Assembly (NCBI RefSeq): GCF_900155985.1
Contig: NZ_FTMA01000001.1
Location: forward strand, 1,870,655-1,934,654
From: Maribacter ulvicola
GTDB lineage: Bacteria; Bacteroidota; Bacteroidia; Flavobacteriales; Flavobacteriaceae
Reading direction: 5' to 3'
DNA length: 64,000 nucleotides
Shown: positions 19,161 through 35,835 of the stretch, in pieces
Position numbering within the stretch: the first letter of the stretch is position 1
How the letters are laid out: every line of letters starts with the position of its first letter
Position numbers and translations under genes: made by a program
Notes under the pieces: generated by a model
Database searches by the model: none
What the model was told of the DNA's origin: nothing
The model's input: the letters and a program-made list of their open reading frames with translations, nothing else

Positions 19161-19721
19161 AATAATTTTCTTTTAGCAATTGGTAGGTAATTTACAAAGA
19201 CCTTACAGGGTAAACGGTTAAAAAATGTTAATACCATTGAAGAAAATTATATTTTTCGATAAAATTATGTACATATTCTAGTCGTTGATTCTTACTTGAT
19301 ATAAGGCACAAGCATGTTAGATACTAAAATGTTTAAAGGTGCTAAAACATCTCTAAGTATTTTAAGACTATAATTAATTTTGATATTGAGGGTCTTTTTT
19401 TGTAATTATTAAATGGATAGGTTTCTAACAACTACTTACCAAGTTCAACTTGATTTTTGAGTTTGTATTTGCATTTAACCTTTCTCTTGTAGGTGTGTTA
19501 TCTAATTGAAATAATATTTTGTAAGAAAAAGCTTATTAATCCGATAAAGTGTATAATTGTAACGTTTAATGGGAAATATTTTTGTAGGAAACGGACTACA
19601 AAAATCAGTAGTACATCGATAAGTATGCATTTCATCGTTAAAATTAAACTTTTTGTCGAATGAGAAATACGTTTACTTACGAGTAAGTGGTTCTTTATAT
19701 ACCAAATTTACCTACTTAATT
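19161..19721. other. Long intergenic region between msrA and a small secreted protein gene
   Basis: No convincing gene is seen in 561 bp. It holds a 22-nt stretch (19450-19471) repeated exactly at 35420-35441, a possible -7 box TATTTTTG near 19579, and LytTR-like 9-mers AACGTTTAA (19561) and TACGTTTAC (19668), each with one deviation and no correctly spaced partner. An open frame from 19653 continues into the small protein but looks like leader sequence. Confidence 0.4.
19450..19471 (+). repeat. Dispersed 22-nt repeat, copy 1
   Basis: Identical over 22 nt to 35420-35441; T/G-rich. Both copies are close to genes of the small secreted ARxY family. Confidence 0.5.
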
Positions 19722-19961
19722 ATGCGTACAATTATTTTTTTACTCCTTGTTATCTGTTTAGGAACTCAGTCCCAGGCACAATCAAAATCACCAGACATAA
19801 AAGTACAGTCCGTTGTTATGCCTATGTTAGATGTAACCATTAAGTCTGACGTAAACATTCAGGGTTTCCAAACAGCTGCAAGGTTTTATAAAGTTAAAAA
19901 TGCAAGGGTTAAACAAGCTTTACTTTTTAAAATAGGAGTGAAAACAGTTTCTTTCGCCTAG
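19722..19961 (+). CDS. Small secreted protein, ARxY-KN family, member A
   Basis: From ATG 19722 this is a 79-residue protein: signal peptide MRTIIFLLLVICLGTQSQAQ (cleavage at the AQ), a short variable middle, and a C-terminus ARFYKVKNARVKQALLF plus ten residues. That last 27-residue block aligns without gaps with the C-termini of the products at 25874, 34901 and 35470. A longer reading from 19653 adds 23 residues before the signal peptide and is unlikely. Its stop overlaps the stop of the convergent TesA-like gene by 4 bp. Function unknown; the basic C-terminal module suggests binding or interaction in the periplasm or outside the cell (inferred). Confidence 0.75.
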   Translation: MRTIIFLLLVICLGTQSQAQSKSPDIKVQSVVMPMLDVTIKSDVNIQGFQTAARFYKVKNARVKQALLFKIGVKTVSFA

Positions 19962-20683
19962 TTTAATTCTTTTACATGATCTTCGGTTTCGCGTGGTAAC
20001 ACAAGTGTTTTCAAGATTTCCCAGACATTTTCTGCTACTATGCGCTGACCTTCAGCAGTAGGGTGTATTCCATCTTCTAAGTTTAAACTAGGAATACCGG
20101 CAACACCTTCCAACAAAAAAGGAATCAACAATATATTATTAGATTTTGCCAAAGTAGGATACATCATCTTAAATTGCGATGCATAATCTGCGCCCATATT
20201 TGGTGGTATTTGCATACCTGCCAATATAATTTGCGTTTCAGGATTTTTATCTTTGACCATATTGATCATCAATTGTAAATTATTCATGGATTCAGTAATG
20301 GGTATTCCCCGTAATCCGTCATTGGCACCTAACTCCAATACAAAAATATCTACAGGTTGATTTAGCACCCAATCTAACCGATTTAATCCGCCAGAGGTGG
20401 TTTCTCCGCTTAATCCGGAGTTGATAACTTTGTAATCTAGTCCCAAAGAATCTAATTTTAATTGAATTCTATTAGGAAACCCTTCCTTGGTATCTAAGCC
20501 ATACGCAGCGGTAAGGCTGTTTCCGTAGAACAAAATCACTTTGTCATCGGCAGAAATAGTCTCTTTTTCAGGGCTGCTAACTGCTTCGGTTTGGGTGTCA
20601 GTTTGCTTTTTTTCTGGCGTTTCTCCACATCCAAGGAACAACAATACCACTAAAAAATAACGAAACTTTAATACTTTCAACAT
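19958..20683 (-). CDS. tesA: TesA-like arylesterase/lysophospholipase, SGNH family lipoprotein
   Basis: This 241-residue protein has a lipobox ending at Cys19 (FLGC), a Gln/Thr/Glu linker to about 48, then a TesA-type SGNH hydrolase: GNSLTAAYG with Ser56, NSGLSGETT (88-96), LGAND (118-122) and DGIHPT with Asp204 and His207. TesA enzymes hydrolyse acyl esters, thioesters and lysophospholipids. It is divergent from an ABC ATPase/permease pair; the same arrangement (tesA beside ybbA-ybbP) exists in E. coli, which supports the assignment. Here the enzyme is lipid-anchored rather than soluble. Confidence 0.88.
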   Translation of the reverse strand: MLKVLKFRYFLVVLLFLGCGETPEKKQTDTQTEAVSSPEKETISADDKVILFYGNSLTAAYGLDTKEGFPNRIQLKLDSLGLDYKVINSGLSGETTSGGLNRLDWVLNQPVDIFVLELGANDGLRGIPITESMNNLQLMINMVKDKNPETQIILAGMQIPPNMGADYASQFKMMYPTLAKSNNILLIPFLLEGVAGIPSLNLEDGIHPTAEGQRIVAENVWEILKTLVLPRETEDHVKELN

Positions 20684-20745
20684 AGGCTTAACTTATTAGA
20701 TTCCAAATCATTTGTTTATTTTGTTGACTTGTACCAAATTAATTT

Positions 20746-21435
20746 ATGACAAAGATATTAAACGTACGTAATCTAAAGAAAACGTATACCAGCGGATCTA
20801 AGAATTTGACAGTAATTGATGATATTTCTTTTTCTATTGAAGAAGGCGATACTTTTGCTATTGTGGGTCCGTCAGGAAGTGGAAAAACAACCTTACTAGG
20901 ACTTTGTGCCGGATTAGATGAAATTAACGAGGGCGTAATAGCACTTTGCGGAGAAGATTTAAGTGCCTTGAACGAAGATCAACGTGCACTTTTAAGAAAT
21001 GAAAAGGTAGGATTTATTTTTCAAGACTTTCAATTACTACCTACTTTGACCGCATTAGAAAATGTAAGTGTTCCTTTAGAATTACAAGGCGCTGCCAATG
21101 CTTCTAAAGATGCGATAGAGTTATTGGCAAAGGTAGGTTTAGGAGATCGTCATGATCATTATCCATCTCAATTATCTGGTGGTGAACAGCAGCGAGTTGC
21201 TTTGGCAAGGGCATTTTCAAACAAACCTTCTATTCTTTTTGCAGATGAGCCTACTGGTAATTTGGATGAAGAAACAGGTGAAAAAGTCATAAAGCTTTTA
21301 TTTGACCTGAATAAAGAAATGGGAACCACTTTGGTTATTGTTACCCATGATTTAGAACTGGCCAACCTGAACAAACATGTATTACGACTTAAAGGTGGTA
21401 AAATAGTAATTAACGAAACCACGGCAATATCTTGA
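20746..21435 (+). CDS. ABC transporter ATP-binding protein, YbbA/LolD-like
   Basis: This 229-residue ATPase shows Walker A GPSGSGKTT (41-49), Q-loop FQDFQLLPT (92-100), signature LSGGEQQR (143-150), Walker B ILFADEP (163-169) and the switch His in VTHDLE. It belongs to the MacB/LolD/YbbA clade that energises permeases with large periplasmic domains. It overlaps the permease gene by 4 bp (TTGA), so the two are coupled. The divergent TesA-like gene suggests a link to lipid or toxin export, as proposed for YbbA-YbbP. Confidence 0.92.
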   Translation: MTKILNVRNLKKTYTSGSKNLTVIDDISFSIEEGDTFAIVGPSGSGKTTLLGLCAGLDEINEGVIALCGEDLSALNEDQRALLRNEKVGFIFQDFQLLPTLTALENVSVPLELQGAANASKDAIELLAKVGLGDRHDHYPSQLSGGEQQRVALARAFSNKPSILFADEPTGNLDEETGEKVIKLLFDLNKEMGTTLVIVTHDLELANLNKHVLRLKGGKIVINETTAIS

Positions 21436-23981
21436 GTATAATACAAAGAACTTCAAAAGCGTCAAATAGCTGGTTGTTGAAAATGGCTTGGCGCGATGGT
21501 AAGGCAAGTGGTAAACGCTTGTTACTTTTCATGGCTTCAATTATTCTGGGTATTGCCGCGGTGGTGTCTATTCAATCTTTCAGCGATAACCTAAAAGATA
21601 ATATTGGTTTGCAATCAAAAGCACTTATGGGTGCAGATTTTCTTGTAGATAGTAATCAACCGGCAAATGAAAGGGTAACGGAATTAATGGATTCTTTAGG
21701 CGGTTATGATGCCCGTGAGGTCAAATTTGCTTCAATGGCGGCATTCCCCAAAAGCTTGTCTACAAAATTGGTTCAGGTTCGTGCTATTGAAGGTGCTTTT
21801 CCTTTTTACGGTGAGTTAGAAACAGAACCGGCCATTGCCGCACAACAGTATTTGGAAAAAGGCGGGGCACTTGTTGATGCTACGGCAATGTTGCAATACA
21901 ATTTAAAACCTGGCGATAGCGTAAAGCTTGGTACTATAACTTTCCCTATTGTTGGCTCATTGATTACCGCTCCTGGAAGTACAGGCATTGGTGCCACTGC
22001 TGCGCCACCCATTATTGTGCCTTTTCGTTTTATGGAAGAAAGCGGTCTCCTGCAACGTGGTAGTCGTTTAGGGTACAATTATTATTTTAATAATGACAAG
22101 GCAAATTTAGAAGTGCTAAGTGAAGAAGTTGATCTGTTACTAGATGCTGAAAATGCAGATATGGACACCCATACGGATACTAGCGAACGCATGGGGCGTA
22201 GATATGATAATGTAGGTAGGTTTTTAAACCTGGTCGCATTTATTGCACTGCTCTTAGGATGCGTTGGTATTGCCAGCTCTGTACATATCTATATAAAAGA
22301 GAAATTAAAAGCGGTAGCAGTGCTAAAATGTTTGGGTGCTACAAGAAAACAAACCTTTTTAATATACCTGATTCAAATTGCAGGTATGGGATTGTTGGGA
22401 GGACTCATTGGTACAGTGATAGGATTGTTGTTGCAACAGACCTTTCCACTTATATTACAAGGGTTTTTACCTTTTCAAGTTGAGATATCTACCTCATTTC
22501 AAGCCATATTCGTTGGGTTGTTACTTGGTGTTTGTATGTCCATATTATTTGCTTTGTCTCCGTTAATACATACTTGGTTTGTGTCTCCATTACAAGTATT
22601 ACGGGTACAGGAAGATACGGGTAAAAAAGCTAGACCTTATCAAATTTGGGTAATCGTTGCTGTAGTACTTTTTATATTCTTATTCGCCTTTTGGTTATTG
22701 GGCAGATGGGTGTTTGCATTGAGTTTTGTTGCGGGTATATTGGTGACATTTTCAATTTTGGCGGGAGTGTCAATTTTATTCATGCGATTGATAAAAAGAT
22801 ACTTCCCCAAGTCTTGGAGTTTTGCCGCAAGACAAAGTTTACTGAATTTATACCGACCAAATAATCAGACCGTAGTGCTGATTTTAGCTATTGGGATAGG
22901 TACATTTTTAATTAGTACATTATACTTTACAAAAGATTTTCTCCTTGCCAAAACCTCGTTCGAGGCAAGTGCTGAAAGTCCGAATTTAATAATGTTTGAT
23001 GTGCAAACAGACCAACGTGATGAAGTAGCAAATACCATCACCCCAAAAGGTCTTCCTGTGATAGATAATATTCCTATCGTGACTATGCGTTTAGAACGAA
23101 TAAAAAATAGAAATGTCAATGATATTCGATTAGATACTACCACCCGTGTGAACAAATGGATTTTGAACCATGAGTTTAGAACTACCTATAGGGATTCTAT
23201 GATCGGTTCCGAAAAGTTGTTGCAAGGGGAGTGGATACCATCTGTGGATCCTAATGATAAAGTAATACCAATTTCATTGGCAGATAATGTGGCAAATGAT
23301 GCGTTGGTAACTTTAGGAGATACCTTGCTTTTTAATGTTCAAGGGAAATTAATGACTACCGTAGTAGGTAATATTCGCCAAGTAGATTGGGCACGTATGC
23401 AGCTCAATTTCTCTATAGTATTCCCAAAGGGAGTATTAGAAAATGCACCTCAGTTTCATGTGGTGACTACCAATGCCCCAGATAAAAAATCATCGGCCGT
23501 TCTGCAGCGAGAGTTGGTGAAGAAATTCCCTAATGTATCCATCATTGATTTAAGACAGGTAGTTACCTTGGTCGAGGATATACTAGATAAAATTTCATGG
23601 GTCATTTCCTTCATGGCATTTTTCAGTATTCTAACGGGAATTATTGTTTTAATTGGCTCTGTGCGTAACAGTAAATATCAGCGAATTCGTGAAAGTGTAT
23701 TGTTAAGAACGCTAGGTGCACAGAGTAAACAGATATTGAAAATTAATGCTTTAGAGTATCTTTTTCTTGGTGTTTTGGGTAGTGGAGTAGGGGTTTTACT
23801 TTCTTTACTAAGTAGCTTTCTACTGGCATATTTTATTTTTGATACGCCATTTGTGCCTTCATGGGTTCCATTTTTAGTGGTATTGCCGGGTATTACCTTA
23901 CTAGTCTTAGCTATCGGATTAATGAACAGTAGAGGGGTATTAAATAGTCCGCCATTACAGGTTTTGCGAAAAGAAGGGTAA
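21432..23981 (+). CDS. ABC transporter permease, YbbP-like (FtsX family, two permease domains)
   Basis: This 849-residue membrane protein has an N-terminal helix (about 28-50), a large periplasmic domain, a first FtsX permease domain (about 265-400), extra helices, a second periplasmic domain (about 515-715) and a C-terminal FtsX domain (about 725-845). It thus has the duplicated FtsX layout of YbbP. The phrases VLKCLGATRKQTF and LLRTLGAQSKQIL are the matching loops in each half. The TTG start overlaps the ATPase stop; an ATG at 21483 would lose part of the N-terminus. Its substrate is unknown. Confidence 0.88.
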   Translation: MSIIQRTSKASNSWLLKMAWRDGKASGKRLLLFMASIILGIAAVVSIQSFSDNLKDNIGLQSKALMGADFLVDSNQPANERVTELMDSLGGYDAREVKFASMAAFPKSLSTKLVQVRAIEGAFPFYGELETEPAIAAQQYLEKGGALVDATAMLQYNLKPGDSVKLGTITFPIVGSLITAPGSTGIGATAAPPIIVPFRFMEESGLLQRGSRLGYNYYFNNDKANLEVLSEEVDLLLDAENADMDTHTDTSERMGRRYDNVGRFLNLVAFIALLLGCVGIASSVHIYIKEKLKAVAVLKCLGATRKQTFLIYLIQIAGMGLLGGLIGTVIGLLLQQTFPLILQGFLPFQVEISTSFQAIFVGLLLGVCMSILFALSPLIHTWFVSPLQVLRVQEDTGKKARPYQIWVIVAVVLFIFLFAFWLLGRWVFALSFVAGILVTFSILAGVSILFMRLIKRYFPKSWSFAARQSLLNLYRPNNQTVVLILAIGIGTFLISTLYFTKDFLLAKTSFEASAESPNLIMFDVQTDQRDEVANTITPKGLPVIDNIPIVTMRLERIKNRNVNDIRLDTTTRVNKWILNHEFRTTYRDSMIGSEKLLQGEWIPSVDPNDKVIPISLADNVANDALVTLGDTLLFNVQGKLMTTVVGNIRQVDWARMQLNFSIVFPKGVLENAPQFHVVTTNAPDKKSSAVLQRELVKKFPNVSIIDLRQVVTLVEDILDKISWVISFMAFFSILTGIIVLIGSVRNSKYQRIRESVLLRTLGAQSKQILKINALEYLFLGVLGSGVGVLLSLLSSFLLAYFIFDTPFVPSWVPFLVVLPGITLLVLAIGLMNSRGVLNSPPLQVLRKEG

Positions 23982-24209
23982 TAAAAGAATGTGTAATCTT
24001 TATTTTATGAGCTTAATTATTTGTTGAGGTGGGTTTGCCTATGTAAGTATAGTAAATGGGTTCTGTTCTTTTATTTAACAAAAGGGAAAAGCAGGCGTAT
24101 TTTAAAGGTTTAACTTTAAACTCCTTATATTATTTTAAGCTTTCATAGCCACTTTTGACTTAATTACCGATAAATCTCTTACTATGCGTGATTTGTCAAC
24201 TAATCAGCA

Positions 24210-24217
24210 TAGCTTTG
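24210..24217 (+). promoter_or_regulatory. Bacteroidota -7 box upstream of the DEAD-box helicase gene
   Basis: TAGCTTTG fits TAnnTTTG and is 25 bp before ATG 24243. The 260-bp gap before it shows nothing else recognisable. Confidence 0.5.
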
Positions 24218-24242
24218 CACCAGAAATACAAAAGTGATTGTT

Positions 24243-25598
24243 ATGCCGTTGTTTACCGATTTAAAAATATCTAGAAACTTAGAAAAAGCACTTGAGGATT
24301 TAGGTTTTGAAAATACTACTCCCATTCAAGAGAAAGCTTTTCCTATTGTAATGAGTGGTAGTGATGTTGTAGGTATAGCACAAACAGGTACCGGTAAAAC
24401 ATTCGCTTATCTGCTTCCCATTTTGAATACGCTTAAGTTTTCTAAGGAAATACATCCTAAAGTGATAATTCTTGTACCTACACGTGAGTTGGTGGTACAA
24501 GTGGTAGAAGAGGCTGAAAAGCTGGCTAAATACGCAGGAATTCGTGTTCTGGGTGTGTTTGGTGGTAAAAGTATGCTACGCCAAAAAGATGCGTTGGCAT
24601 TGGGTACGGATGTTCTGGTAGCAACACCGGCTAGGTTGTATGATTTAATTTTGACCAAAGCGGTTCAATTAAAACAAGTGAAGAAGCTTGTTATTGATGA
24701 GGTCGATGTTATGCTTGATCTAGGTTTCAGGTTTCAGCTCGTAAATATTTTTGAGCTATTACCAAATAAGAGACAGAATATTATGTTTTCTGCTACCATG
24801 ACCGATGATATTGAATTATTTATTACCGATTTCTTTACGGGCGTTCAAAAAATTGCCATTGCGGTTAGTGGAACTCCTCTAGAGAATATTACCCAATACG
24901 GTTACGCTACACCTAACTTTTATACAAAAGTGAATTTGTTGGTCCACTTATTACAGGATGTAGAAACCTACCATAAGGTGCTAGTCTTTGTATCAAGTAA
25001 GCGAAGCGCAGATTTATTATTTAAAGAACTGGCAGAGTTTTTTAGTGAAGAAATATGTATTATTCACTCTAACAAAACGCAAAATTACAGACTACGCTCT
25101 ATTAATCAGTTTGATGAAGGTAAGAACCGTATTTTGGTAACTACCGACGTTATGGCCCGTGGATTGGATCTACAGGAAATATCTCATGTCATAAATTTTG
25201 ATACACCAACGTACCCAGAAAACTATATGCACAGAATTGGTAGAACGGGTAGGGCAGAGAAAGAGGGTACCTCTATATTACTATTTACGGAAAAGGAAGA
25301 AGAAGCTAAAGATGCTATAGAAGATTTAATGTCATATAAGGTAAATGAATTACCATTACCTAATGGCGTTGAAATTGCCACGCAACTTACTTTTGACGAG
25401 CAACCTAAGCATAGAGAACGTGAGAATCCGCTTAATATAAACGAAGAGGAGCGTGGGGCAAGTTTTCATGAGAAATCTGATAAGAACAAAAAAGAAAACC
25501 AAGGAGGTTCTTATAAGCGTATCATTAAAAAGAAATATAGTAAACCCAAAACCCGTGGAGATAAAAACTACGGTAAACGTGGTAGAAACAAAAAATAA
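24243..25598 (+). CDS. DEAD-box ATP-dependent RNA helicase
   Basis: From ATG 24243 this is 451 residues. The two RecA domains carry the Q motif (TTPIQEKAF), motif I AQTGTGKT (46-53), motif Ia PTREL, motif II as DEVD instead of DEAD, motif III SAT, motif V TDVMARGLD and motif VI HRIGRTGR. A basic Lys/Arg/Gly-rich tail follows from about 400 and probably binds RNA. The family remodels RNA in ribosome assembly and cold response. I prefer the ATG to the GTG at 24234 because it starts with the usual N-terminus MPLFTDLKIS. It appears monocistronic. Confidence 0.92.
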   Translation: MPLFTDLKISRNLEKALEDLGFENTTPIQEKAFPIVMSGSDVVGIAQTGTGKTFAYLLPILNTLKFSKEIHPKVIILVPTRELVVQVVEEAEKLAKYAGIRVLGVFGGKSMLRQKDALALGTDVLVATPARLYDLILTKAVQLKQVKKLVIDEVDVMLDLGFRFQLVNIFELLPNKRQNIMFSATMTDDIELFITDFFTGVQKIAIAVSGTPLENITQYGYATPNFYTKVNLLVHLLQDVETYHKVLVFVSSKRSADLLFKELAEFFSEEICIIHSNKTQNYRLRSINQFDEGKNRILVTTDVMARGLDLQEISHVINFDTPTYPENYMHRIGRTGRAEKEGTSILLFTEKEEEAKDAIEDLMSYKVNELPLPNGVEIATQLTFDEQPKHRERENPLNINEEERGASFHEKSDKNKKENQGGSYKRIIKKKYSKPKTRGDKNYGKRGRNKK

Positions 25599-25744
25599 GT
25601 TTCAACTTTTTCATTTTGATTAATTCTATTTTTTTACATAAAAGTTAGTCTTTTAACTTGTAATTTCTTGGTGTTGTAAATTTCATATATTTAAAAATAC
25701 CGATGAAATACATACCGTATCGGTGTGGTGTTTTTAGACCAAAA

Positions 25745-25774
25745 ACCATTCGTCGGCACTATTTATCTGTTTGT
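25745..25774 (+). promoter_or_regulatory. Candidate LytTR-type direct repeat upstream of a small secreted protein gene
   Basis: ACCATTCGT (25745-25753) and TCTGTTTGT (25766-25774) are each 8 of 9 matches to [TA][AC][CA]GTTN[AG][TG] and have a 12-bp spacer, the known LytR/AlgR-class arrangement. They lie about 73 bp upstream of the -7 box at 25847. No LytTR regulator gene is in the window. Confidence 0.45.
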
Positions 25775-25846
25775 CAAAGTTTCTTACACTAGCCGAAAAT
25801 TAGCGCAGTTCAGCGAGGGGAAGAGGTTTACTTTTTGGTCTGAAAG

Positions 25847-25854
25847 TACTTTTG
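25847..25854 (+). promoter_or_regulatory. Bacteroidota -7 box of the small secreted protein gene (member B)
   Basis: TACTTTTG fits TAnnTTTG and is 19 bp before the ATG at 25874. Confidence 0.55.
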
Positions 25855-25873
25855 TATTGTTCAATATTACAAT

Positions 25874-26131
25874 ATGAAAACATTATTTACCTTACTAATA
25901 GTCATTTTCGCCGGAGCATTGGCATTGGCACAAACTCCCCTAACAGATGATGAAATTAACACTACTGAAGTGGGTGTTGTTTTGGCTGATAGCTTTGGCA
26001 ATACTGGCAACGAAAAAACGATTGAAATCACTGATAAAACGTCTGTAGCTCGTTTGTACAGGTACAAAAATGCAAGGGTAAACAAAGAATTAGCATTTAT
26101 TGCTACTAAAAACTATGTTAAGTTGGCATAA
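25874..26131 (+). CDS. Small secreted protein, ARxY-KN family, member B
   Basis: This 85-residue protein has a signal peptide ending ALALAQ (residue 20), an acidic middle (about 21-57) and the C-terminal block ARLYRYKNARVNKELAF plus ten residues. The last 27 residues align without gaps with the C-termini of members A, C and D: Ala1, Arg2, Tyr4, Lys7, Asn8, Arg10, Leu15 and Phe17 of the block are invariant. It has its own promoter with a LytTR-like site, and is followed by a 40-residue membrane protein ORF. Function unknown. The acidic middle and basic tail could pair or be separated after processing (inferred). Confidence 0.82.
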   Translation: MKTLFTLLIVIFAGALALAQTPLTDDEINTTEVGVVLADSFGNTGNEKTIEITDKTSVARLYRYKNARVNKELAFIATKNYVKLA

Positions 26132-26183
26132 TCTTTGCTCAATATAAAATGGTGCAATGAAGCACTTTTTAAATTTTAAAATT

Positions 26184-26306
26184 ATGATGTTACTTTCAAT
26201 TATAGTACCAACAGTTATTGTTATTGCAACTATTGCTTTTACTTCATCAAGAAACGAAAAAAAAGTACGTCCGGTTAAAATACCAGTGAACAAGCGTAAG
26301 TTTTAA
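26184..26306 (+). CDS. Putative 40-residue membrane protein
   Basis: A short open frame starts MMLLSIIVPTVIVIATIAF, one membrane helix, and ends in a Lys/Arg-rich tail (NEKKVRPVKIPVNKRKF). It follows the member B gene by 52 bp and its stop overlaps the stop of the convergent amidohydrolase gene by 4 bp. Single-helix proteins with basic tails are common in flavobacteria, but its short length means it could be chance. Confidence 0.45.
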   Translation: MMLLSIIVPTVIVIATIAFTSSRNEKKVRPVKIPVNKRKF

Positions 26307-27892
26307 TTTTTTATGCCAGGTTGCTTAATAGTATAATTACTTTTAGCCTTGGCCACGTCTACTTGGCGTTTTACATCTGCCAGTAGTGCTTTGGAATCAT
26401 AGACGATTCCGTCCTTTATGGTGTATTTTACACCACCAACCCGAACCACCTCGTTGTCCTCGGTAAGTTTAATAGCTCCCGTACCATACAACACTTTTAA
26501 ATTTTGAAGCGGATTTTCCTCAACAATAACAAAATCGGCTAATTTACCAATGGTTACTGAACCTAATTTATCATCCATACCTAATGCTTCTGCGCCTTTT
26601 AATGTTGCAGATTGTATAATTTCTAAAGGATGAAAGCCAGCTTCACGCATTAACTCCAGTTCTCTTATGTAAGCGAAACCATATAATTGAAAAATGAATC
26701 CGGAGTCTGAGCCTGTAGTTACTCTACCACCTCTGTTTTTATATTCATTGATAAAGGTCATCCAAAGTTTATAATTTTTTCTCCAAGCGACTTCTTGTTC
26801 TGTACCCCAATCATGCCAGTACGATCCATGAGACACTTTACTAGGTTGATAAAATTCCCATAAAGACGGTAATGTATAATCTTCATGCCATTCTGCTCTT
26901 CTAGTACGTTGTAAATCTCTACTGGCTTCATAGATGTTGAAAGTAGGATCCAAGGTGAAATCAAGTTCCAATAGTTCGTTCATTACGTTATTCCAATGTT
27001 CTGAATACGGTTCTGCAGCTTGTGCCCATAGTTTTCCGGCATTTTCAAAGCGATGTTGTTCGTTTTGGTAATTATAGTCCAACGGAAAATCTTGTACTGT
27101 TCTATTGCTGAACAAAGCTTCTGGTAAACCGTACCAATGCTCCATAGAGGTTAAACCTGCTCTGGCAGAATGTAAAACATTCCAACGGGCAACGCTCATT
27201 TGTGCATGATGGCAAGCAGAACCTAACCCCAATTTCTTATTCTCCTCTAATGCCGCTGCCATAATTTCCCGTTCGGCTCCAAAAAACTTAATACCATCAG
27301 CTCCTTTTTTAGCATTTGCACGTACCCATTCCCTCGCTTGCTCGGGAGTAGAAATAGGTATGTCGTTCAAGGGATTAAATGATGCACTGGTTTGTCCAAA
27401 GGCAGTATACGATATAATGCGCGGAGCGATGATTTCATTTTTCTCACTTTTGCGTTTTAAGTTGAGCGTAACATCAATGCCTCTTCCGGCAACCTCACGG
27501 ACCGTAGTAACCCCATGCGCCATCCAAAGTTTAAATACATAATCAGGGTCTGCACCTTGTGCATCACCGCCAATATGTGTGTGCATATCAATAAAACCGG
27601 GCATTAAATACATGCCGGTACAATCTAGTTCTTTTCCACCAGCTTTTAATTGAGGTCTTTTGGCATCATCAATGGCGACACCCGGGTAGCCAACAACTTT
27701 TACGTCTTTAATAATATTGTTTTCTACCACAATATCAATAGGGCCTTGTGGTGGTGCACCGTTGCCGTTAATAAGCATAACGCCTCTAATAATCAATTGC
27801 GAATGTGGGCCATCGCCTTCTAATGATTGGGCGTTGACGGAAAGCAAAACAGAAAAAGTCATTGCTGTGGTAAGCAGTAATTTGCGGAACAT
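26303..27892 (-). CDS. Secreted amidohydrolase-superfamily metalloenzyme
   Basis: This 529-residue protein has a signal peptide ending VNAQ (residue 21). The amidohydrolase fold is shown by YLMPGFIDMHTHIGGD (metal-binding HxH), SACHHAQ and SMEHWYG (His residues on later strands), and TTGSDSGFIF with the catalytic Asp. The C-terminal KLGSVTIGKLADFVIVEENPL closes the composite beta domain. Family members cleave C-N bonds of cyclic amides, peptides or imidazoles. Export suggests a peptidase- or imidazolonepropionase-like role in the periplasm, but the substrate is unknown. It is monocistronic. Confidence 0.87.
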   Translation of the reverse strand: MFRKLLLTTAMTFSVLLSVNAQSLEGDGPHSQLIIRGVMLINGNGAPPQGPIDIVVENNIIKDVKVVGYPGVAIDDAKRPQLKAGGKELDCTGMYLMPGFIDMHTHIGGDAQGADPDYVFKLWMAHGVTTVREVAGRGIDVTLNLKRKSEKNEIIAPRIISYTAFGQTSASFNPLNDIPISTPEQAREWVRANAKKGADGIKFFGAEREIMAAALEENKKLGLGSACHHAQMSVARWNVLHSARAGLTSMEHWYGLPEALFSNRTVQDFPLDYNYQNEQHRFENAGKLWAQAAEPYSEHWNNVMNELLELDFTLDPTFNIYEASRDLQRTRRAEWHEDYTLPSLWEFYQPSKVSHGSYWHDWGTEQEVAWRKNYKLWMTFINEYKNRGGRVTTGSDSGFIFQLYGFAYIRELELMREAGFHPLEIIQSATLKGAEALGMDDKLGSVTIGKLADFVIVEENPLQNLKVLYGTGAIKLTEDNEVVRVGGVKYTIKDGIVYDSKALLADVKRQVDVAKAKSNYTIKQPGIKN

Positions 27893-28008
27893 AAAGTGGT
27901 GGTTTTAGTTAGTTACATTAAATATAGCTAAAGCACCAGAAATTGAGGTGATTACAAAGGAATTTTAAGTGTTCAAATAATGAATTTGGTATTTTAGGGA
28001 TATGCCCT

Positions 28009-29229
28009 TTAGGCAACAGGAAACAATTGCTGTTTAATTTCTCGAAACTTTATAATGTAGTTGGTTCCTTTTTTAGAAGTATCCCGTTGTATAGTTCCTC
28101 TTAATTGACGTGTTAGGTTATGTATTAATTTTAGTCCTAAAGACTTTGTGTTTTTATGACTAACGGTTTCAGGGAATCCTATTCCGTTATCACCAATTTC
28201 TAGTATATAACAATGTTTTTGTTCAGTGTCTTTTTTTAGTTTTATACTAATTTCGCCTTCGTTATCACTTTCAATACCATATTTTAGTGCATTCGTCAAA
28301 GTTTCATTAATTAACAGACCTAGCGGAATAGCGGTATCTATACCCAGCTTAATATCAGGAATATCAATTTTTAAATCTACTTTATTGTCGTTTCCTTTTA
28401 TGGATCGAATTAAATAATCACCTAATTCTTGCACGTAAGACTCGTACTCAATATGGCTGATATCATTACGCATGTATAACATTTCGTGTACCATAGCCAT
28501 AGCAATAACCCTATTCTGCGTACCTTTTAAAAGACCTTTCATAGGTCCTGATTCTATGTTTTTAGATTGTAAGCTTAAAAGACTAGAAACTGTTTGTAGG
28601 TTATTTTTTACCCTATGGTGAACTTCTTTTAATAAATTCTCTTTTTCATATACTTGAATAGCTAAAGCCCGTTTTGAATTGTACATGGCATTATAGGTTT
28701 TTAGTAAGGTTCTACCTAAAGTATTACCTAAAATGAAAACGGCAAGTAAAACGGAAACCAAACTAAAAATTGAATTTGATTCTTCAGGTACTAAATTTTC
28801 TGTAATACGTAATTCAGGTATGGTCTGTGAAAAAACTAATAGAATAAGAATAGTTATGATATTAAAATATACGCTACCATATTTTGCACTATTTATGAAA
28901 CCACCGAAAGCAATTAAAGGAATCATGAAAATAAACGGACTGTTAATTCCACCGCTATAAACTGTTACCGCTAAGGCTGTAATTAAGCCTATAATAAAAG
29001 AAAAATTAAAAGTAGGTATGATGTTTTTGTGAAACTTGAAGTATTGTAAATTGATAATATTTAAAATAGCAAAGCCGACAAGAACAAAAGGAATTACTTG
29101 GGTGATATTCAAAAAGAAATAGCATAAACCTCCAAAAAGAATGGAAATAATGCTCGTGGTATAATTTACCCTTATAAAAAGTTTGGTTTTATCCTGTAGA
29201 CGTTCGTTGTCAATGGTAAATCCGGGCAT
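28009..29229 (-). CDS. Membrane sensor histidine kinase, HisKA_2 type
   Basis: This 406-residue kinase has about six membrane helices (roughly 20-180), a short linker, a HisKA_2 phospho-acceptor (LLKEVHHRVKNNLQTVSSLL, near 205) and an HATPase_c domain (NETLTNALKYG, GDNGIGFPE, LGLKLIHNL). HisKA_2 kinases often pair with orphan receivers or LytTR-like regulators. No response regulator gene is adjacent. There is no periplasmic sensor domain of note, so sensing may be within the membrane. The 112-bp gap to the amidohydrolase gene shows no feature. Confidence 0.9.
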   Translation of the reverse strand: MPGFTIDNERLQDKTKLFIRVNYTTSIISILFGGLCYFFLNITQVIPFVLVGFAILNIINLQYFKFHKNIIPTFNFSFIIGLITALAVTVYSGGINSPFIFMIPLIAFGGFINSAKYGSVYFNIITILILLVFSQTIPELRITENLVPEESNSIFSLVSVLLAVFILGNTLGRTLLKTYNAMYNSKRALAIQVYEKENLLKEVHHRVKNNLQTVSSLLSLQSKNIESGPMKGLLKGTQNRVIAMAMVHEMLYMRNDISHIEYESYVQELGDYLIRSIKGNDNKVDLKIDIPDIKLGIDTAIPLGLLINETLTNALKYGIESDNEGEISIKLKKDTEQKHCYILEIGDNGIGFPETVSHKNTKSLGLKLIHNLTRQLRGTIQRDTSKKGTNYIIKFREIKQQLFPVA

Positions 29230-29546
29230 AGAAATTATTTATGTACTAGAAAACATACGAATTACGTACTGTAAATCTAATTATGTTTTTATCATTATAC
29301 TAGTATTTTTCTACTTTAGTATGATAAAAACCACAATTATTTTTCTGATTTACATATTTTTTTTGCTTAAATAATGGTTAAAAATATAAATGATATGATC
29401 AATTGCTATTGGAATTGATTTTTAAAGGAATCTACTATTAGATAATAAATGTAACATATACACTTAACATATAGTTGGTTATATGTAGACATTAAAAAAA
29501 GGCATCTGATAAAGATGCCTTTTTTTGAATTGATTTTTAGACAATA
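29230..29546. other. AT-rich intergenic region, no gene
   Basis: This separates the kinase gene from the secA terminator. I see no open frame with coding character and no clear promoter box; only the terminator at 29494-29526 is convincing. Confidence 0.5.
29494..29526. terminator. Strong bidirectional terminator after secA
   Basis: A7 then GGCATC (29501-29506), 7-base loop, GATGCC (29514-29519) and T7. It lies 20 bp after the secA stop on the minus strand. Confidence 0.85.
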
Positions 29547-32500
29547 TCAGTCTTGGGTAAGTACCCATGATCCATCTTGTAATAGTGGTTCTGCTTGTTT
29601 ATACTTTACCGTTTTACTTTCACCGCTCATTATATTTTTAATGGTAACGCGCTCATTTCTTCCAATTTTAGGCTGTTCCCTTGTTATAGTTTCTGTAACT
29701 GCAGGGCGTTCAGCTTGGTTTTGGCTAACTGCTCTACTACGTGCCGCCAATTCATCGCTATTAGGAATTTCCTCTTTTGTTGTCTGTAAATTATCTTTAC
29801 GCTGAACATTTCTTTCTTCTTGAATAGCATTAGGATTTTCTGAAGGTAATTCACCTTTAAACAAGAAAGAGACTACCTCTTTGTTTACTTTCTCTATCAT
29901 TGATTTAAAAAGTTCAAATGCTTCGAACTTATAAATTAATAAAGGATCTTTTTGTTCGTGAACCGCTAATTGTACAGATTGTTTCAGCTCATCCATTTTA
30001 CGTAAATGTGTTTTCCATGAATCATCTATAATGGCCAAAGAAATGTTCTTCTCAAAATCTGTGATCAATTGCTTACCGTTACTGTCATATGCCTCTTGAA
30101 GATTGGTAACAACATTTAAACTTTTTATTCCATCGGTAAAAGGAACTACAATACGCTCAAAGTTATTGGCATTATCTTCATGTACCTTTTTAATTACTGG
30201 GAAAGCTGCAGCGGCATTACGCTCCATCTTATCATTATAATGCTCATATGCGGCTTTATAAATTTTACCGGTAATTTCTTGGGCAGACAATTTGCCGAAT
30301 TCGGTTTCATCTACAGGTGCCGTGATAGAGAAGTATTTGATCAATTCAAATTCTAGATTCTTATAATCACTGGCAGCCTTATTGCTCTCTACGATAACCT
30401 CACAGGTATCATAGACCATATTTGCAATATCTAGTTTTAAACGCTCTCCTTGCAATGCATGGCGTCTTCTTTTGTATACAACTTCACGTTGCGCGTTCAT
30501 AACATCATCATACTCCAATAAACGCTTACGTACGCCAAAATTGTTCTCTTCAACTTTTTTCTGTGCACGTTCAATAGATTTTGTCATCATGCTATGCTGA
30601 ATAACTTCACCATCTTCCAAGCCCATTTTATCCATCATCTTAGCAACTCTGTCAGAACCGAATAAACGCATTAGGTTATCTTCTAATGAAACATAGAATT
30701 GTGAACTTCCTGGGTCTCCTTGACGACCAGAACGACCACGTAATTGTCTATCTACACGACGAGAATCATGTCTTTCCGTACCAATAATTGCTAATCCGCC
30801 TGCTTTCTTAACAGCATCAGACAATTTAATATCAGTACCACGACCTGCCATGTTGGTTGCAATGGTTACAATACCGGCATTACCTGCCTCAGCAACAACA
30901 TCTGCTTCTTTTTTGTGAAGTTTTGCGTTCAGTACATTATGTGGCACTTTACGAACACTCAGTAATTTAGATAACAATTCAGATATCTCTACAGAAGTTG
31001 TACCAATCAAAACAGGTCTTCCTGCCTTACTAATTTTGGTAACCTCTTCAATAATAGCATTGTATTTTTCTCTTTTTGTCTTGTAGATTAGATCATTTTT
31101 ATCTTGTCTGGCAATAGGTCTGTTGGTGGGGATTTCCATGACATCTAACTTGTAGATTTCCCAAAATTCACCGGCTTCGGTAACAGCTGTACCTGTCATA
31201 CCTGCAAGTTTGCTGTACATTCTAAAGTAGTTCTGCAGGGTAACCGTTGCAAAAGTCTGTGTTAAAGCTTCAATCTTTACATTTTCTTTTGCTTCTATTG
31301 CCTGGTGTAATCCGTCAGAGTATCTACGACCGTCCATTATACGACCGGTCTGTTCATCTACGATCATTACCTTATTGTCCATTACCACATACTCGGTATC
31401 TTTTTCAAATAACGTGTATGCCTTAAGTAATTGGCTCATAGTGTGTATGCGCTCACTCTTAATAGTGAAATCTTTAAAAAGCTCTTCTTTTAATTCTGCT
31501 TCTTTTTCAATTTCAAGATTTTGATTTTCAATCTTGGCAATCTCGCCACCAATATCCGGCATTACGAAGAAATCTCTATCCTGCTCACCAGAAATATAAT
31601 TGACCCCTTTGTCGGTCAGCTCTATTTGGTTGTTCTTTTCATCAATTACAAACAGTAAGTCTTCATCAACAACCGGCATTTCCCTGTTGTTATCTTGCAT
31701 GTAGAAATTTTCTGTTTTTTGAAGTAATTGTTTTACCCCTTCTTCACTTAAGAACTTAATTAAAGCTTTGTTTTTGGGTAAACCTCTGTATACTCTTAAT
31801 AATAAGAAACCACCTTCTTTGGTGTCACCTTCTGAAATTAATTTTTTAGCCTCTGCTAAAACTCCCGTTAAATGCTGGCGTTGCTTTCTAACAATTTCGT
31901 CAACCTTTGGTTTTAGTTCATTGAACTCATGACGGTCTCCTTCTGGCACTGGTCCAGATATAATTAAAGGAGTACGGGCGTCATCTACCAAAACTGAATC
32001 GACCTCATCTACCATGGCATAATTATGTGGACGTTGTACCAAATCTTTAGGTGTGTGCGCCATATTATCCCTTAGGTAGTCGAACCCGAATTCATTGTTC
32101 GTTCCATAGGTAATATCCGCATTGTAGGCTGCACGTCTACCATCAGAGTTTGGCCTATGGTAATCTATACAATCTACAGATAATCCATGAAATTGAAATA
32201 TAGGAGCCATCCAAGCACTATCTCTTTTTGCCAAATAATCATTAACGGTTACTAAATGTGCACCTTTACCGCTTAATGCGTTTAAATATAACGGTAGGGT
32301 TGCAACTAGGGTTTTACCTTCACCTGTTTGCATCTCTGCAATTTTTCCCTGGTGCATGGCTATGCCGCCAATAAGTTGTACATCATAATGTACCATATCC
32401 CAGGTAACTTCTTTACCTGCGGCATCCCAAGAATTTTTCCAAATTGCATTGGTTCCATCTAAAGTGACATATTCTTTAGTACCTGACAAGGTTCTGTCAT

Positions 32501-32906
32501 ATTCAGAGGCAGTTACTTCTAATGTTGGGTTATTGGCAAAACGCTTGGCGGTTTCTTTAACCACTGCAAAAGCCTCCGGTAGAATTTTATTTAAAGTCTC
32601 TTCAGAAATTGTATAGGATTCTTCTTTAAGCTTATCTATTTCGGTATATAAATCTTCATTTTTGTCAATATCGGTAGAGTTTTTTACCTCTTCCTCTAAA
32701 GCATTGATTTGATCGGTTTTTTCTTTAATAGATTCTTGGATAGCCTCTTTAAATTCTATTGTTTTCTGCCTGAGCTCATCATGGCTAAGGCTTTCTAACT
32801 TAGATTCGAACGATTTTATTTGGTCTACTAAAGGCTGCAATTCTTTTACATCTTTTTGTGATTTATCACCAACGAATGCCTTTAGGATGGAATTAATGAA
32901 ACTCAT
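29547..32906 (-). CDS. secA: Preprotein translocase subunit SecA
   Basis: This 1119-residue ATPase drives secreted proteins through SecYEG. It shows Walker A in [15 protein letters not shown], the motif II region [18 protein letters not shown], motif GTSVEISE and the GRGTDIKL and [14 protein letters not shown] segments of the second motor half. Compared with E. coli SecA (901 residues) it has long Bacteroidota-type insertions (about residues 40-115 and 330-470). It lacks the C-terminal CxCx8CH zinc finger, ending in WVLTQD. It is monocistronic with a strong terminator. Confidence 0.97.
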
Positions 32907-33075
32907 ATATCTTAATCTGTTAAAATTGAAGCTTTTCTGGCTAATTTATTAGTAAGAATCGCTTTCGAAATATTTTATAATCGACAATTATAATCGATGC
33001 TATTAGAGAGCAAAAGGTATTCCAGTCTTAATTTTTCAACCAAATTACCTATGAACCTGTCAAAATTACATAAAA

Positions 33076-33099
33076 AAAAAGCCTCCGAAGAGACTTTTT
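33076..33099 (-). terminator. Imperfect terminator after the DUF2795 gene
   Basis: AAAAAGCCTC and GAGACTTTTT form a 10-bp stem with one mismatch and a 4-base loop, followed by T on the minus strand. Confidence 0.55.
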
Positions 33100-33122
33100 A
33101 CTAGTTATTATGATATCGAATA

Positions 33123-33347
33123 TTAATATTCGTCCTCGTTCCAGAGGTAGTCTTCTTCCGTTGGATAGTCAGGCCAGATCTCTTCGATAGATTCATATAT
33201 TTCGCCACCTTCTTCTTCCATAGATTGTAAATTTTCTACAACTTCAAGAGGGGCTCCAGTTCTGATGGAGTAATCTATTAACTCATCTTTACTTGCCGGC
33301 CAAGGTGCATCACTTAAATAAGATGCTAATTCTAATGTCCAATACAT
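33123..33347 (-). CDS. DUF2795 family small protein
   Basis: This 74-residue acidic cytoplasmic protein matches DUF2795: helical N-terminus LASYLSDAPWPASKDELIDYS, then GAPLEVVENLQSM and a very acidic tail ending WPDYPTEEDYLWNEDEY. The family is conserved in Bacteroidota with no assigned function. A -7 box at 33374-33381 and a terminator at 33076-33099 make it a single-gene unit. Confidence 0.85.
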   Translation of the reverse strand: MYWTLELASYLSDAPWPASKDELIDYSIRTGAPLEVVENLQSMEEEGGEIYESIEEIWPDYPTEEDYLWNEDEY

Positions 33348-33373
33348 AGTAATTGTTTGATTTTAATTTTTTG

Positions 33374-33381
33374 CAAAAGTA
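33374..33381 (-). promoter_or_regulatory. Bacteroidota -7 box of the DUF2795 gene
   Basis: On the minus strand it reads TACTTTTG, 26 bp before the ATG at 33347. Confidence 0.5.
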
Positions 33382-33480
33382 ATTTTTAAATTGAGACAGC
33401 AAAGAAATTAACAATAAATTTCGTAGTATCTATATGTTTTTTTGCATTTGTTAATTGATAACGAATAAATTACGGATTTA

Positions 33481-34056
33481 TTAGTCCTTTTTTTTAGGAA
33501 CCCATTTTATTTCATTTGTTTGTAAATCATATGACAATTTTCGTGCCAATACAAACAGATAATCTGAAAGCCTATTTATAAAAGATAGCACATTTTTATC
33601 AAATGGCTCATTTTGGTGTAATAAAGTTGATATGCGCTCCGCCCTTCTACATACTGTACGGGCAATATGACAGTATGACACTGTGGTGTGTCCGCCTGGT
33701 AGAATAAAATGGGTCATTGGCGGTAATTGCGAATCCATTTGGTCTATAGCTTCCTCTAAGAAGTTGATTTCAGTAGTACCTACTTTCGTTATTTTTAAAC
33801 GCTCGGTACCATTCTTTAACAATTCTTTTTCTGGATTGGTAGCTAAAATAGCGCCAACGGTAAACAAATGTTCTTGTATAGCAATAAGCTGGTGCTGGTA
33901 AATAGGGTCAATATCTTGATCTCTTATGAGTCCAATCCAAGAATTTAGCTCATCTATTGTGCCATAACTGTCAATACGAATGTGATGTTTTGGTACACGC
34001 GTGCCACCAAAAAGTCCAGTTGTGCCATCATCACCTGTTTTAGTATATATATTCAT
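33481..34056 (-). CDS. Cob(I)alamin adenosyltransferase, PduO type
   Basis: This 191-residue enzyme transfers adenosyl from ATP to cob(I)alamin, making adenosylcobalamin. It begins with the nucleotide-binding IYTKTGDDGTTGLFGG and carries SYGTIDELNSWIG, then FILPGGHTTVSYCHIARTVCRRAER, the family signature. It probably supplies cofactor to methylmalonyl-CoA mutase, whose chaperone gene meaB is at 12681. The next gene leftwards is the DUF2795 gene, 133 bp away with its own promoter. Confidence 0.94.
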   Translation of the reverse strand: MNIYTKTGDDGTTGLFGGTRVPKHHIRIDSYGTIDELNSWIGLIRDQDIDPIYQHQLIAIQEHLFTVGAILATNPEKELLKNGTERLKITKVGTTEINFLEEAIDQMDSQLPPMTHFILPGGHTTVSYCHIARTVCRRAERISTLLHQNEPFDKNVLSFINRLSDYLFVLARKLSYDLQTNEIKWVPKKKD

Positions 34057-34129
34057 TGAAAATGAGTGTTAGTAAGAAGTAAAGATTAAACTGGGGTTGA
34101 TATTGATATTTTAAATAATAGCTTAGCTT

Positions 34130-34279
34130 TTAATCCTTGTTACCCTTATTTTTTCTTTCATAATCACCCATGAATTTTCTTGATTTTCGGTCTTTAGATT
34201 TTCCTTTACTGCTAATGCGAATGGCTAAGTAGATAGCGAAAACGACACCAAGGGTAATGTATATAGTATTACTGCTCAT
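34130..34279 (-). CDS. Small single-helix membrane protein (49 residues)
   Basis: Read from the minus strand: MSSNTIYITLGVVFAIYLAI, one membrane helix, then a basic tail RISSKGKSKDRKSRKFMGD continuing to GNKD. It lies between the methyltransferase-like gene (30 bp) and the adenosyltransferase gene (73 bp), in the same direction. Function unknown. The clear topology and operon position support it. Confidence 0.65.
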   Translation of the reverse strand: MSSNTIYITLGVVFAIYLAIRISSKGKSKDRKSRKFMGDYERKNKGNKD

Positions 34280-34309
34280 TAAAATTTGCTTTAGTCTAAA
34301 ATTACTGGT

Positions 34310-34804
34310 TTATATCCGTATTTTAAAATGTTCCTTTACTTGTTCTTTTCTAAAGAATATGGCGCCACAATAAAACATATCTATGGTAACCCTAACGTTA
34401 TCTTCTGTTTTAAGATTTTTCCAGCTTTCTACATTATCTTTGTGTTGATGTATTTCGTCTACAAGAAGCATACAGTCGTTAGGTAAATTACTGAGGTCTA
34501 GATTGCTGTTTTTTAGGTCATTGATATTTGAAAGAATAACGTCTGCATTGTTTTCAACGAAAGCTATCTTCGGGCAATGTTTTTTAATAATCTCTTTAGA
34601 TTTTTTATAATCGCCCACAAGAAAAATGGACTCGTACTTAAAGTATTCTAAACTCTTAACAAGGACTTTTAGGGTTACCGGTAGCTTCAATTCTTGTTTT
34701 ACATAAAGACATTTGGTAATATAATCATACACAAAAGGAGAATGAATTCCGTGCTGATTGTTAGAAGTAAGAAGAAATTTAATATAGGATATAGAACGAA
34801 ACAC
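34310..34804 (-). CDS. Short methyltransferase-like protein, SAM core apparently reduced
   Basis: This 164-residue protein starts like flavobacterial class I methyltransferases (QHGIHSPFVYDYITKCLY) and ends like them (VRVTIDMFYCGAIFFRKEQVKEHFKIRI). Those proteins, as I recall, are near 230-240 residues. The missing part would include the glycine-rich SAM loop, since I find no E/DxGxGxG. It has its own -7 box (34827-34834) and an intact frame, so it is probably expressed. It may be a degenerate or non-catalytic form. Family assignment is from remembered end motifs only. Confidence 0.6.
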   Translation of the reverse strand: MFRSISYIKFLLTSNNQHGIHSPFVYDYITKCLYVKQELKLPVTLKVLVKSLEYFKYESIFLVGDYKKSKEIIKKHCPKIAFVENNADVILSNINDLKNSNLDLSNLPNDCMLLVDEIHQHKDNVESWKNLKTEDNVRVTIDMFYCGAIFFRKEQVKEHFKIRI

Positions 34805-34826
34805 TAGTTACTTTTTCAAATTTCTT

Positions 34827-34834
34827 CAAAAGTA
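34827..34834 (-). promoter_or_regulatory. Bacteroidota -7 box of the methyltransferase-like gene
   Basis: On the minus strand it reads TACTTTTG, 22 bp before the ATG at 34804. Confidence 0.5.
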
Positions 34835-34900
34835 AAGATTGTCATTGAACTTAAGTTTAATTTTTGAATTTGAGTATGGATTTGAACTTGAATTGTTGTG

Positions 34901-35161
34901 TTAAGAAAGTTTAGCTCTGTTCAATTTTGTTGAGAATTTTAAAGCTTTGATAATTCTGTTGTTTTTGTTTTTGTACAATCTAGCAACCTCAATGGTGTTT
35001 TCAGTTTCAATTGTAGGAACAACGATATCATTATTTTCAATAGTCTGAACCAGCTCTACTTGTGCAGTTTCTATTTCTACGGAAACATTCTCGTTGTTAG
35101 CTTGCGCTTGTACTAAGAAAGAAGAGAAGAAAAGAGCGGTTAAAAGAATAATTGATTTCAT
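34901..35161 (-). CDS. Small secreted protein, ARxY-KN family, member C
   Basis: This 86-residue protein has a signal peptide ending LVQAQ (residue 20), an acidic middle rich in Glu, Val and Thr (21-58), and the C-terminal block ARLYKNKNNRIIKALKF plus ten residues shared with members A, B and D. It differs from member D only at residue 14 (Ser against Thr), within the signal peptide, so the mature proteins are identical. The single-residue change with one silent difference shows very recent duplication or gene conversion. Function unknown. Confidence 0.82.
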   Translation of the reverse strand: MKSIILLTALFFSSFLVQAQANNENVSVEIETAQVELVQTIENNDIVVPTIETENTIEVARLYKNKNNRIIKALKFSTKLNRAKLS

Positions 35162-35179
35162 AACAGTTGTTTTACACTG

Positions 35180-35187
35180 CTAAAGTA
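35180..35187 (-). promoter_or_regulatory. -7-like box of member C
   Basis: On the minus strand it reads TACTTTAG, one base off TAnnTTTG, 19 bp before the ATG. The same box precedes member D. Confidence 0.45.
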
Positions 35188-35241
35188 CAGGCAAGCCCAA
35201 ATATATTTTGCCGCCGGTCGTTGGGCGTCATTTAACTATAG

Positions 35242-35250
35242 ACGAATGGT
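35242..35250 (-). promoter_or_regulatory. ACCATTCGT element upstream of member C
   Basis: The minus strand carries ACCATTCGT, 8 of 9 matches to the LytTR half-site consensus, 54 bp upstream of the -7 box. The second arm of the palindrome seen in the other copy is diverged here (GCTTCGTTTA, 7 of 10). Confidence 0.4.
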
Positions 35251-35419
35251 AAATAGGCTTCGTTTATCAATTTTAAGGAAGATGAATAATCAATCAGATT
35301 CAGTATGCGGCAGTACGTGCAATAACCGTAAGTACTGGTGTTACTGCTTTAGTTTTTGGGATAAGCTAGCAATGGATAGAGTGTATGGTATACGGATGAA
35401 CAGTTATTTGAATTTGAAT

Positions 35420-35441
35420 TTGATTTTTGAGTTTGTATTTG
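35420..35441 (+). repeat. Dispersed 22-nt repeat, copy 2
   Basis: Identical over 22 nt to 19450-19471; embedded in TTGAA-type low-complexity sequence. Confidence 0.5.
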
Positions 35442-35469
35442 ATTTTGAACTTGAACTTGAATTGTTGTG

Positions 35470-35730
35470 TTAAGAAAGTTTAGCTCTGTTCAATTTTGTT
35501 GAGAATTTTAAAGCCTTGATAATTCTGTTGTTTTTGTTTTTGTACAATCTAGCAACCTCAATGGTGTTTTCAGTTTCAATTGTAGGAACAACGATATCAT
35601 TATTTTCAATAGTCTGAACCAGCTCTACTTGTGCAGTTTCTATTTCTACGGAAACATTCTCGTTGTTAGCTTGCGCTTGTACTAAGAAAGTAGAGAAGAA
35701 AAGAGCGGTTAAAAGAATAATTGATTTCAT
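35470..35730 (-). CDS. Small secreted protein, ARxY-KN family, member D
   Basis: This 86-residue protein is the tandem twin of member C, with Thr14 in place of Ser14 in the signal peptide and an identical mature sequence. The layout is signal peptide (1-20), acidic middle, then the 27-residue basic C-terminal block ARLYKNKNNRIIKALKF plus ten. Its upstream region keeps the full palindrome at 35808-35835, so this copy may represent the ancestral control region. Function unknown; high dosage of the mature protein may be the benefit (inferred). Confidence 0.82.
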   Translation of the reverse strand: MKSIILLTALFFSTFLVQAQANNENVSVEIETAQVELVQTIENNDIVVPTIETENTIEVARLYKNKNNRIIKALKFSTKLNRAKLS

Positions 35731-35756: not shown

Positions 35757-35807
35757 CAGACGGGCCCAAACATATTTTGCCGCTGGTCGTTGGGCGTCAT
35801 TTAACTA

Positions 35808-35835
35808 TAGACGAATGGTAAAAATCATTCGTCTA
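35808..35835. promoter_or_regulatory. Perfect palindromic operator-like element upstream of member D
   Basis: TAGACGAATG (35808-35817) and CATTCGTCTA (35826-35835) are perfect 10-bp inverted repeats with an 8-bp spacer. The minus strand includes ACCATTCGT as in the other family promoters. No T-run follows, so it is not a terminator. It lies about 52 bp upstream of the -7 box. Confidence 0.5.

Follow-up and report, generated by a model that had tools for sequence, protein, structure and literature searches.

A family of small, putatively exported proteins with a constrained C-terminus and a conserved upstream repeat array in marine Flavobacteriaceae

Results

Four small genes and a fifth paralogue

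The window (the whole stretch of 64,000 nucleotides of Maribacter ulvicola DNA that was analysed) contains a class A gene on the plus strand (19722-19961, 79 amino acids), a class D gene on the plus strand (25874-26131, 85 amino acids), and two copies of a class C gene on the minus strand (copy 1 at 34901-35161 and copy 2 at 35470-35730, each 86 amino acids). These are the four open reading frames that the original prediction had described as one family of secreted proteins, and all of them are present. Each protein starts with a hydrophobic, export-signal-like stretch that runs to near an AQ dipeptide (judged by eye), in keeping with the claimed signal peptide ending in AQ. Our alignment also reproduced the ungapped C-terminal block of 27 residues, which is encoded at 19878-19958 (class A), 26048-26128 (class D), 34904-34984 (class C copy 1), and 35473-35553 (class C copy 2). 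Eight positions of the block (A, R, Y, K, N, R, L, and F) are invariant in the four proteins, and they are kept when we add a fifth paralogue of 78 amino acids, which lies outside the window in the same genome (G000:C9:156269-156502, where G000 is the M. ulvicola genome).

All four proteins are homologous, as predicted, but they represent only three independent sequences, not four, because the class C genes arose by a single tandem duplication. They lie in repeat units of 300 nucleotides (34845-35144, strand unassigned, and 35414-35713) that are 95% identical and 569 bp apart, and their proteins differ at one residue. A single-sequence query with one paralogue finds the others in the genome at E = 5e-7, 4e-4, 8e-4, and 0.019. 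(The class A member matches the class D paralogue at E = 0.019 and is also found by profile.) A profile built from four paralogues found no additional full-length copy in this genome, the remaining matches being at E = 0.003 or weaker. One of these, a 59-residue open reading frame without a signal peptide (positions 1429-1608 of locus L010; G000:C5:844452-844553) has a degenerate block that aligns to its very end. It is possibly a decayed or cytoplasmic relative.

Distribution and inheritance

By profile search, the family is present in all 36 genomes of the genus (M. ulvicola included) and in the single genome from another genus of the same family in our search of relatives, with a best E value per genome of 3e-17 or lower; 23 genomes from other families reach E = 0.0017 at best. 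Among 397 genomes of Flavobacteriaceae, 120 reach E = 1e-3 and 71 have a solid match (best E < 1e-8), which leaves 326 with no match below E = 1e-8. Across 395 genomes from the entire phylum, nine match at E = 1e-4: six are strong and are all Flavobacteriaceae, and the other three cover just the first 41 to 52 positions of the profile. Members occur in Arenibacter, Zobellia, Maribacter, Pseudozobellia, Kriegella, Saonia, and Eudoraea, at no fewer than 73 distinct loci.

We compared 20 extended loci from other genera with the block of genes in the window, using msrA, GDSL, ABC ATPase and permease, DEAD, amidohydrolase, HisKA_2 kinase, secA, DUF2795, and cobO as markers. Two or more of the markers, with family genes among them, are found at 13 of these loci, and 7 loci share none. 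(The DEAD marker was found only in L074 among the extended loci.) The longest tandem runs are of five copies (G033, locus L113) and four copies (G114, locus L086). We read the shared marker genes and the tandem runs as vertical inheritance with repeated duplication, and it is well supported that this is a real, unnamed family of some marine Flavobacteriaceae, as are the constraint on its proteins and the conservation of the array described below. We also considered a mobile element and dropped this reading since the positions are syntenic at 13 of the 20 extended loci. At two loci from two genera (L072 9580-12576 and L083 12093-16233), family copies flank ArsR-like and other apparent arsenic-resistance genes (named by eye from the starts of their proteins).

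The original prediction knew of no named family that fits, and our searches bear this out. Across 55 members, Pfam and NCBIfam gave nothing better than E = 3.8e-4, with each match coming from one or two members, and the best match in the PDB had E = 0.045, so no convincing relative emerged from either search. Judged by titles or the starts of abstracts, the open-licence literature contained no description that we found of the family or of the array described below. The nearest candidate is DUF4969 (PF16339), which 1 of the 55 members hits; in the class C copies it weakly covers residues 3-58, with E = 4e-4 for one and 8e-4 for the other. However, these matches score 21.2 and 20.1 bits, below the cut-off of 31.4, and they stop before the C-terminal block, so we do not place the family in DUF4969.

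Anatomy and constraint of the proteins

We could measure 242 of the 246 unique relatives (4 could not be measured), and their median length is 79. The middle region had been described as mostly acidic, and its charge is indeed negative in 198 relatives, with a median of -3, but the rule is not universal: the middle is neutral in 26 and positive in 18. The C-terminal block is strongly basic, with a median net charge of +8 and a minimum of +4. Its amphipathicity is modest (the median z of the helix moment is about 1). All 242 measured relatives terminate 10 residues beyond the LxF pair. Distant family members in G115 end 9 residues past LxF, so the claim that the block always ends the protein stands for the measured relatives, but the 10-residue spacing is not absolute. 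The original interpretation is partly supported: the family and its terminal block hold up, and the proposal that the block is a binding, sorting or processing signal, or a secreted peptide, stays a conjecture.

The dN/dS ratio is lowest in the block (0.12; the last 28 codons), followed by the signal region (0.17) and the middle (0.29), as computed from 251 coding sequences and 2921 pairs (the sequences are related and the pairs are not independent). We rejected chance similarity of the blocks, given the single-sequence matches between paralogues, the profile matches in the family and in every one of the 36 genus genomes, and the low dN/dS of the block; the blocks are homologous, as had been proposed. 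Synonymous divergence is 0.36 in the signal region, 0.59 in the middle, and 0.63 in the block. The lower value in the signal codons (the first 20) implies extra constraint on those codons, hinting at selection at the nucleotide level in the part encoding the putative signal peptide. An AlphaFold2 model from 55 sequences places a helix at residues 56-74 behind a disordered middle; means of confidence over ten residues range from 67 to 86, and the model is weak overall (pLDDT 66.9, pTM 0.28).

A conserved array of repeats upstream

Many family members share an unusually conserved putative promoter in which repeats stand at even intervals, pointing to a single regulator that turns these genes on. 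The original prediction did not mention this array, the strongest feature of the family. In 59 member upstream sequences that are less than 70% alike, about 180 columns before the ATG align across genera and then conservation drops: the mean fraction of the major base is 0.55-0.71 inside these columns and 0.35-0.54 beyond. CGA/TCG cores return at spacings of 20 bp (z = 16.8) and 21 bp (z = 26.5), as well as 40-41 bp and 61 bp; because the 59 non-redundant upstream sequences are related, the z scores overstate their independence. By eye, each array has about six half-sites, with two in one orientation and four in the other.

An RNA leader, riboswitch, or cis-regulatory RNA was rejected. In an alignment of 36 upstream sequences (A5; none from M. 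ulvicola, 67% mean identity), 0 base pairs were predicted. The Flavo-1 motif is part of Rfam. It is described as a widespread motif of Flavobacteriaceae (PMC9723704). When the window stretch and 13 loci were compared with Rfam up to E = 1, no family matched an array.

We searched with two models of the array, R1, which includes no sequence from the M. ulvicola genome, and R2. Upstream of the class D member, the array lies at 25695-25847 (plus strand; R1 E = 3.6e-13), and the array of the C9 paralogue has an R1 E value of 1.8e-30. The class A member is preceded by a diverged array at 19526-19706 (plus strand) that is not significant by R1 alone (E = 0.40); R2 matches it at 19517-19588 with E = 2.3e-5, but R2 was built with this same sequence included. 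The class C copies have upstream sequences that differ from the arrays of the other classes, with no R1 match at E = 10 and no R2 match at E = 0.5. They share another upstream element, TAGACGAATG, at 35239-35267 and 35807-35835, and copy 2 is also preceded by an inverted partner of it. This element is unlike the 20-21 bp array of the other classes.

The top-listed R1 matches lie mostly beside family genes. R1 matches at E = 1e-3 occur in 103 of the 397 Flavobacteriaceae genomes. Among the 127 top-listed matches from these 397 genomes, 117 end -5 to +40 bases from the start of a listed family gene, and inspection showed that 7 more adjoin a family gene (two each in G159 and G217, and one each in G084, G248, and G268). 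Hence 124 of 127 adjoin an intact member; of the others, one adjoins a decayed member (G090) and two are not assignable (G274, at a contig end, and G183). In the reverse direction, 117 of 150 listed family genes have an R1 match and 33 have none, among the matches listed. In the M. ulvicola genome, two R1 matches that outscore the class A array (E = 0.046 and 0.135) were counted as chance rather than as further targets since they sit inside coding frames, and R1 and R2 together gave no further convincing target (the best other R2 match has E = 0.02). R2 also has two matches in G039, which is from another family (E = 7e-5 and 2e-4), and one in G005 (E = 8.6e-5), with no clear target gene, which counts against strict specificity of short pieces of the array.

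Array-like sequences before other genes

Of the 103 genomes with R1 matches, 34 have only weak ones (best E above 1e-9), and we opened ten of these. In four genomes (G082, G451, G087, and G127), we found the array next to a pair of sixA-like and ppk1 genes and before a gene for a secreted protein. (The pair was tested against Pfam for G127 only and was recognised by eye in the others.) In G082 and G451, the secreted protein has a PKD_4 domain above the Pfam cut-off and an SprB repeat below it; the proteins tested at this position in G087 and G127 had no domain match. These array-like matches before PKD/SprB-type adhesin genes, and one before a porP/sprF gene, are weaker than the family arrays. 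The latter is in G159, in which the family is present, and has an R1 E value of 8.6e-5. Other weak matches accompany distant family members (G115), another small secreted protein (G424), two similar secreted proteins (G382), or a 307-residue protein (G204), and in G167 and G357 we found no convincing target gene. The relatives of the array before adhesin genes and before the one porP/sprF gene would place the small proteins in a regulon for surface attachment or a surface lifestyle, a reading that draws on few loci, as ten of the 34 genomes were opened and two of the four proteins at the adhesin position lack a domain match.

A candidate regulator and a neighbouring kinase

According to PMC4847170, a LytTR site has two repeats, each of 9-11 nucleotides, with spacers of 11-13 nucleotides; such sites lack a common consensus, and YpdB recognises GGCATTTCAT. 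The array has the layout of a LytTR operator, with at least two repeats at a period of about 20-24 bp, and in several promoters site 1 is GCATTT-like on the opposite strand. By analogy, the most likely binder of the array would be a LytTR-type response regulator, and because the sites are described as having no common consensus (PMC4847170), the resemblance is only a lead. The M. ulvicola genome encodes 20 LytTR domains. One LytTR gene, together with a TPR-HisKA_2 kinase, is about 2 kb from the C9 paralogue, with a DEAD helicase in between. At another locus (L330), genes for a LytTR regulator and a TPR-type kinase flank a weak array-like match to R2 (G000:C10:91173-91255; E = 0.235), and this may hint at autoregulation.

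The window also encodes a histidine kinase (28009-29229, minus strand) with HisKA_2 and HATPase_c domains (Pfam) and a hydrophobic N-terminal half; a simple scan found six candidate hydrophobic segments, two of them overlapping. It is a candidate partner of the family. At E = 1e-60, the kinase is found in 75 of the 397 Flavobacteriaceae genomes, and 69 of these are among the 71 that have the family. It occurs without the family in six genomes, and the family occurs without it in two, one of which has a contig end at the locus. The kinase often directly adjoins family genes, and both are duplicated in several genera. However, in G436, G313, and G280 the kinase is beside secA and we did not find a family gene nearby; in G134, G334, and G344 the kinase is located elsewhere; and in G260 there are family genes at the secA locus with no kinase match, where the contig ends. 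Given these exceptions, the co-occurrence may reflect shared synteny and ancestry, and we do not uphold the kinase as an obligate partner. In several genera there are two to four copies of the secA-adjacent HisKA_2 kinase itself (loci L075 and L077; genomes G036, G186, G229, and G284).

Discussion

Our preferred explanation, which we offer tentatively and with less than even confidence, is that the family belongs to a LytTR-controlled regulon for a surface lifestyle and that the small exported proteins act through a basic C-terminal helix. Under this model, a single type of promoter of about 180 bp, with about six operator half-sites spaced two turns of DNA apart, would drive many copies of the gene. 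A LytTR-type response regulator would bind the half-sites and switch on the family genes, which would share with the adhesins a regulon for attachment to surfaces or a surface lifestyle. In the exported protein, the variable and mostly acidic middle may serve as a flexible spacer, and the working part would be the conserved, strongly basic helix, whose most likely docking site would be an anionic component of the envelope or matrix, either a polymer or a lipid. The number of gene copies would set the dose of the small protein.

We weighed three other explanations. The block might instead be an unvarying contact surface for a single protein or lipid carrier of the envelope, so that the family would be a housekeeping factor of the envelope, similar to a small periplasmic chaperone or inhibitor. 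Vertical inheritance, with genes of the window block at 13 of 20 extended loci, and the fixed C-terminal end in all 242 measured relatives agree with such a role. A housekeeping factor would not usually be amplified in tandem again and again or have so elaborate a promoter of its own, though, and 326 of the 397 Flavobacteriaceae genomes seem to do without the family at E = 1e-8, so we think it unlikely. A signalling role strikes us as less probable still: the exported protein, or its C-terminal part, would be the ligand of the neighbouring multi-segment HisKA_2 kinase, and the kinase would in turn activate the array promoters via a LytTR regulator, closing a positive loop. The presence of the kinase in 69 of the 71 genomes with the family, often as a direct neighbour, and the duplication of both kinds of gene in several genera are what this idea would lead us to expect, and LytTR-type regulators are described as governing peptide-responsive systems elsewhere (PMC8895600, PMC6193735). 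Against it are the six genomes named above in which the kinase is beside secA with no family gene nearby or is located elsewhere, the family genes of G260 that have no kinase match (albeit at a contig end), and the lack of any known route out of the cell or known processing site.

Finally, the C-terminal part could be an antimicrobial or bacteriocin-like peptide that is basic, is neutralised by the acidic middle, and is set free outside the cell. The charge pattern fits this and the genes are multi-copy, but no immunity or export gene travels with them, as 7 of the 20 extended loci share no marker gene with the window; 44 of 242 relatives have a neutral or positive middle; the block is conserved rather than diversifying (dN/dS 0.12); and Pfam matches to a defensin propeptide are weak (E = 0.05-0.14). 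We consider an antimicrobial role very improbable.

Whatever its role, the family and its array are conserved and amplified across several marine genera and have no convincing family model. If the array is a LytTR operator, then it provides a sequence handle on the surface-lifestyle regulon of these bacteria. The C-terminal block, being compact, lends itself to direct testing, and if the signalling explanation were true, peptide communication in the Bacteroidota would become testable.

The array resembles the LytTR operators of YpdB and HdrR/BrsR in having repeated half-sites with a period of about 20-21 bp, as far as those sites are described (PMC4847170, PMC6193735), and in the GCATTT-like core of some of its sites. 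In contrast to the one pair of repeats in LytTR sites, it has about six sites in two orientations. Another parallel is with the LytTR-controlled genes for secreted peptides in Gram-positive bacteria, the points in common being a small exported product, a repeat-type promoter, and a HisKA_2-type kinase nearby. However, the kinase in the window is HisKA_2 by Pfam and not of the AgrC type, the family genes do not form an operon with the regulator, the envelope is Gram-negative, and processing is only hypothetical. It is a very doubtful proposal that these genes are a Gram-negative counterpart of LytTR peptide signalling, in which HisKA_2 kinases would read the multi-copy exported proteins or their basic C-termini, with LytTR feedback on the six-site array, and would coordinate surface adhesins in marine Flavobacteriaceae.
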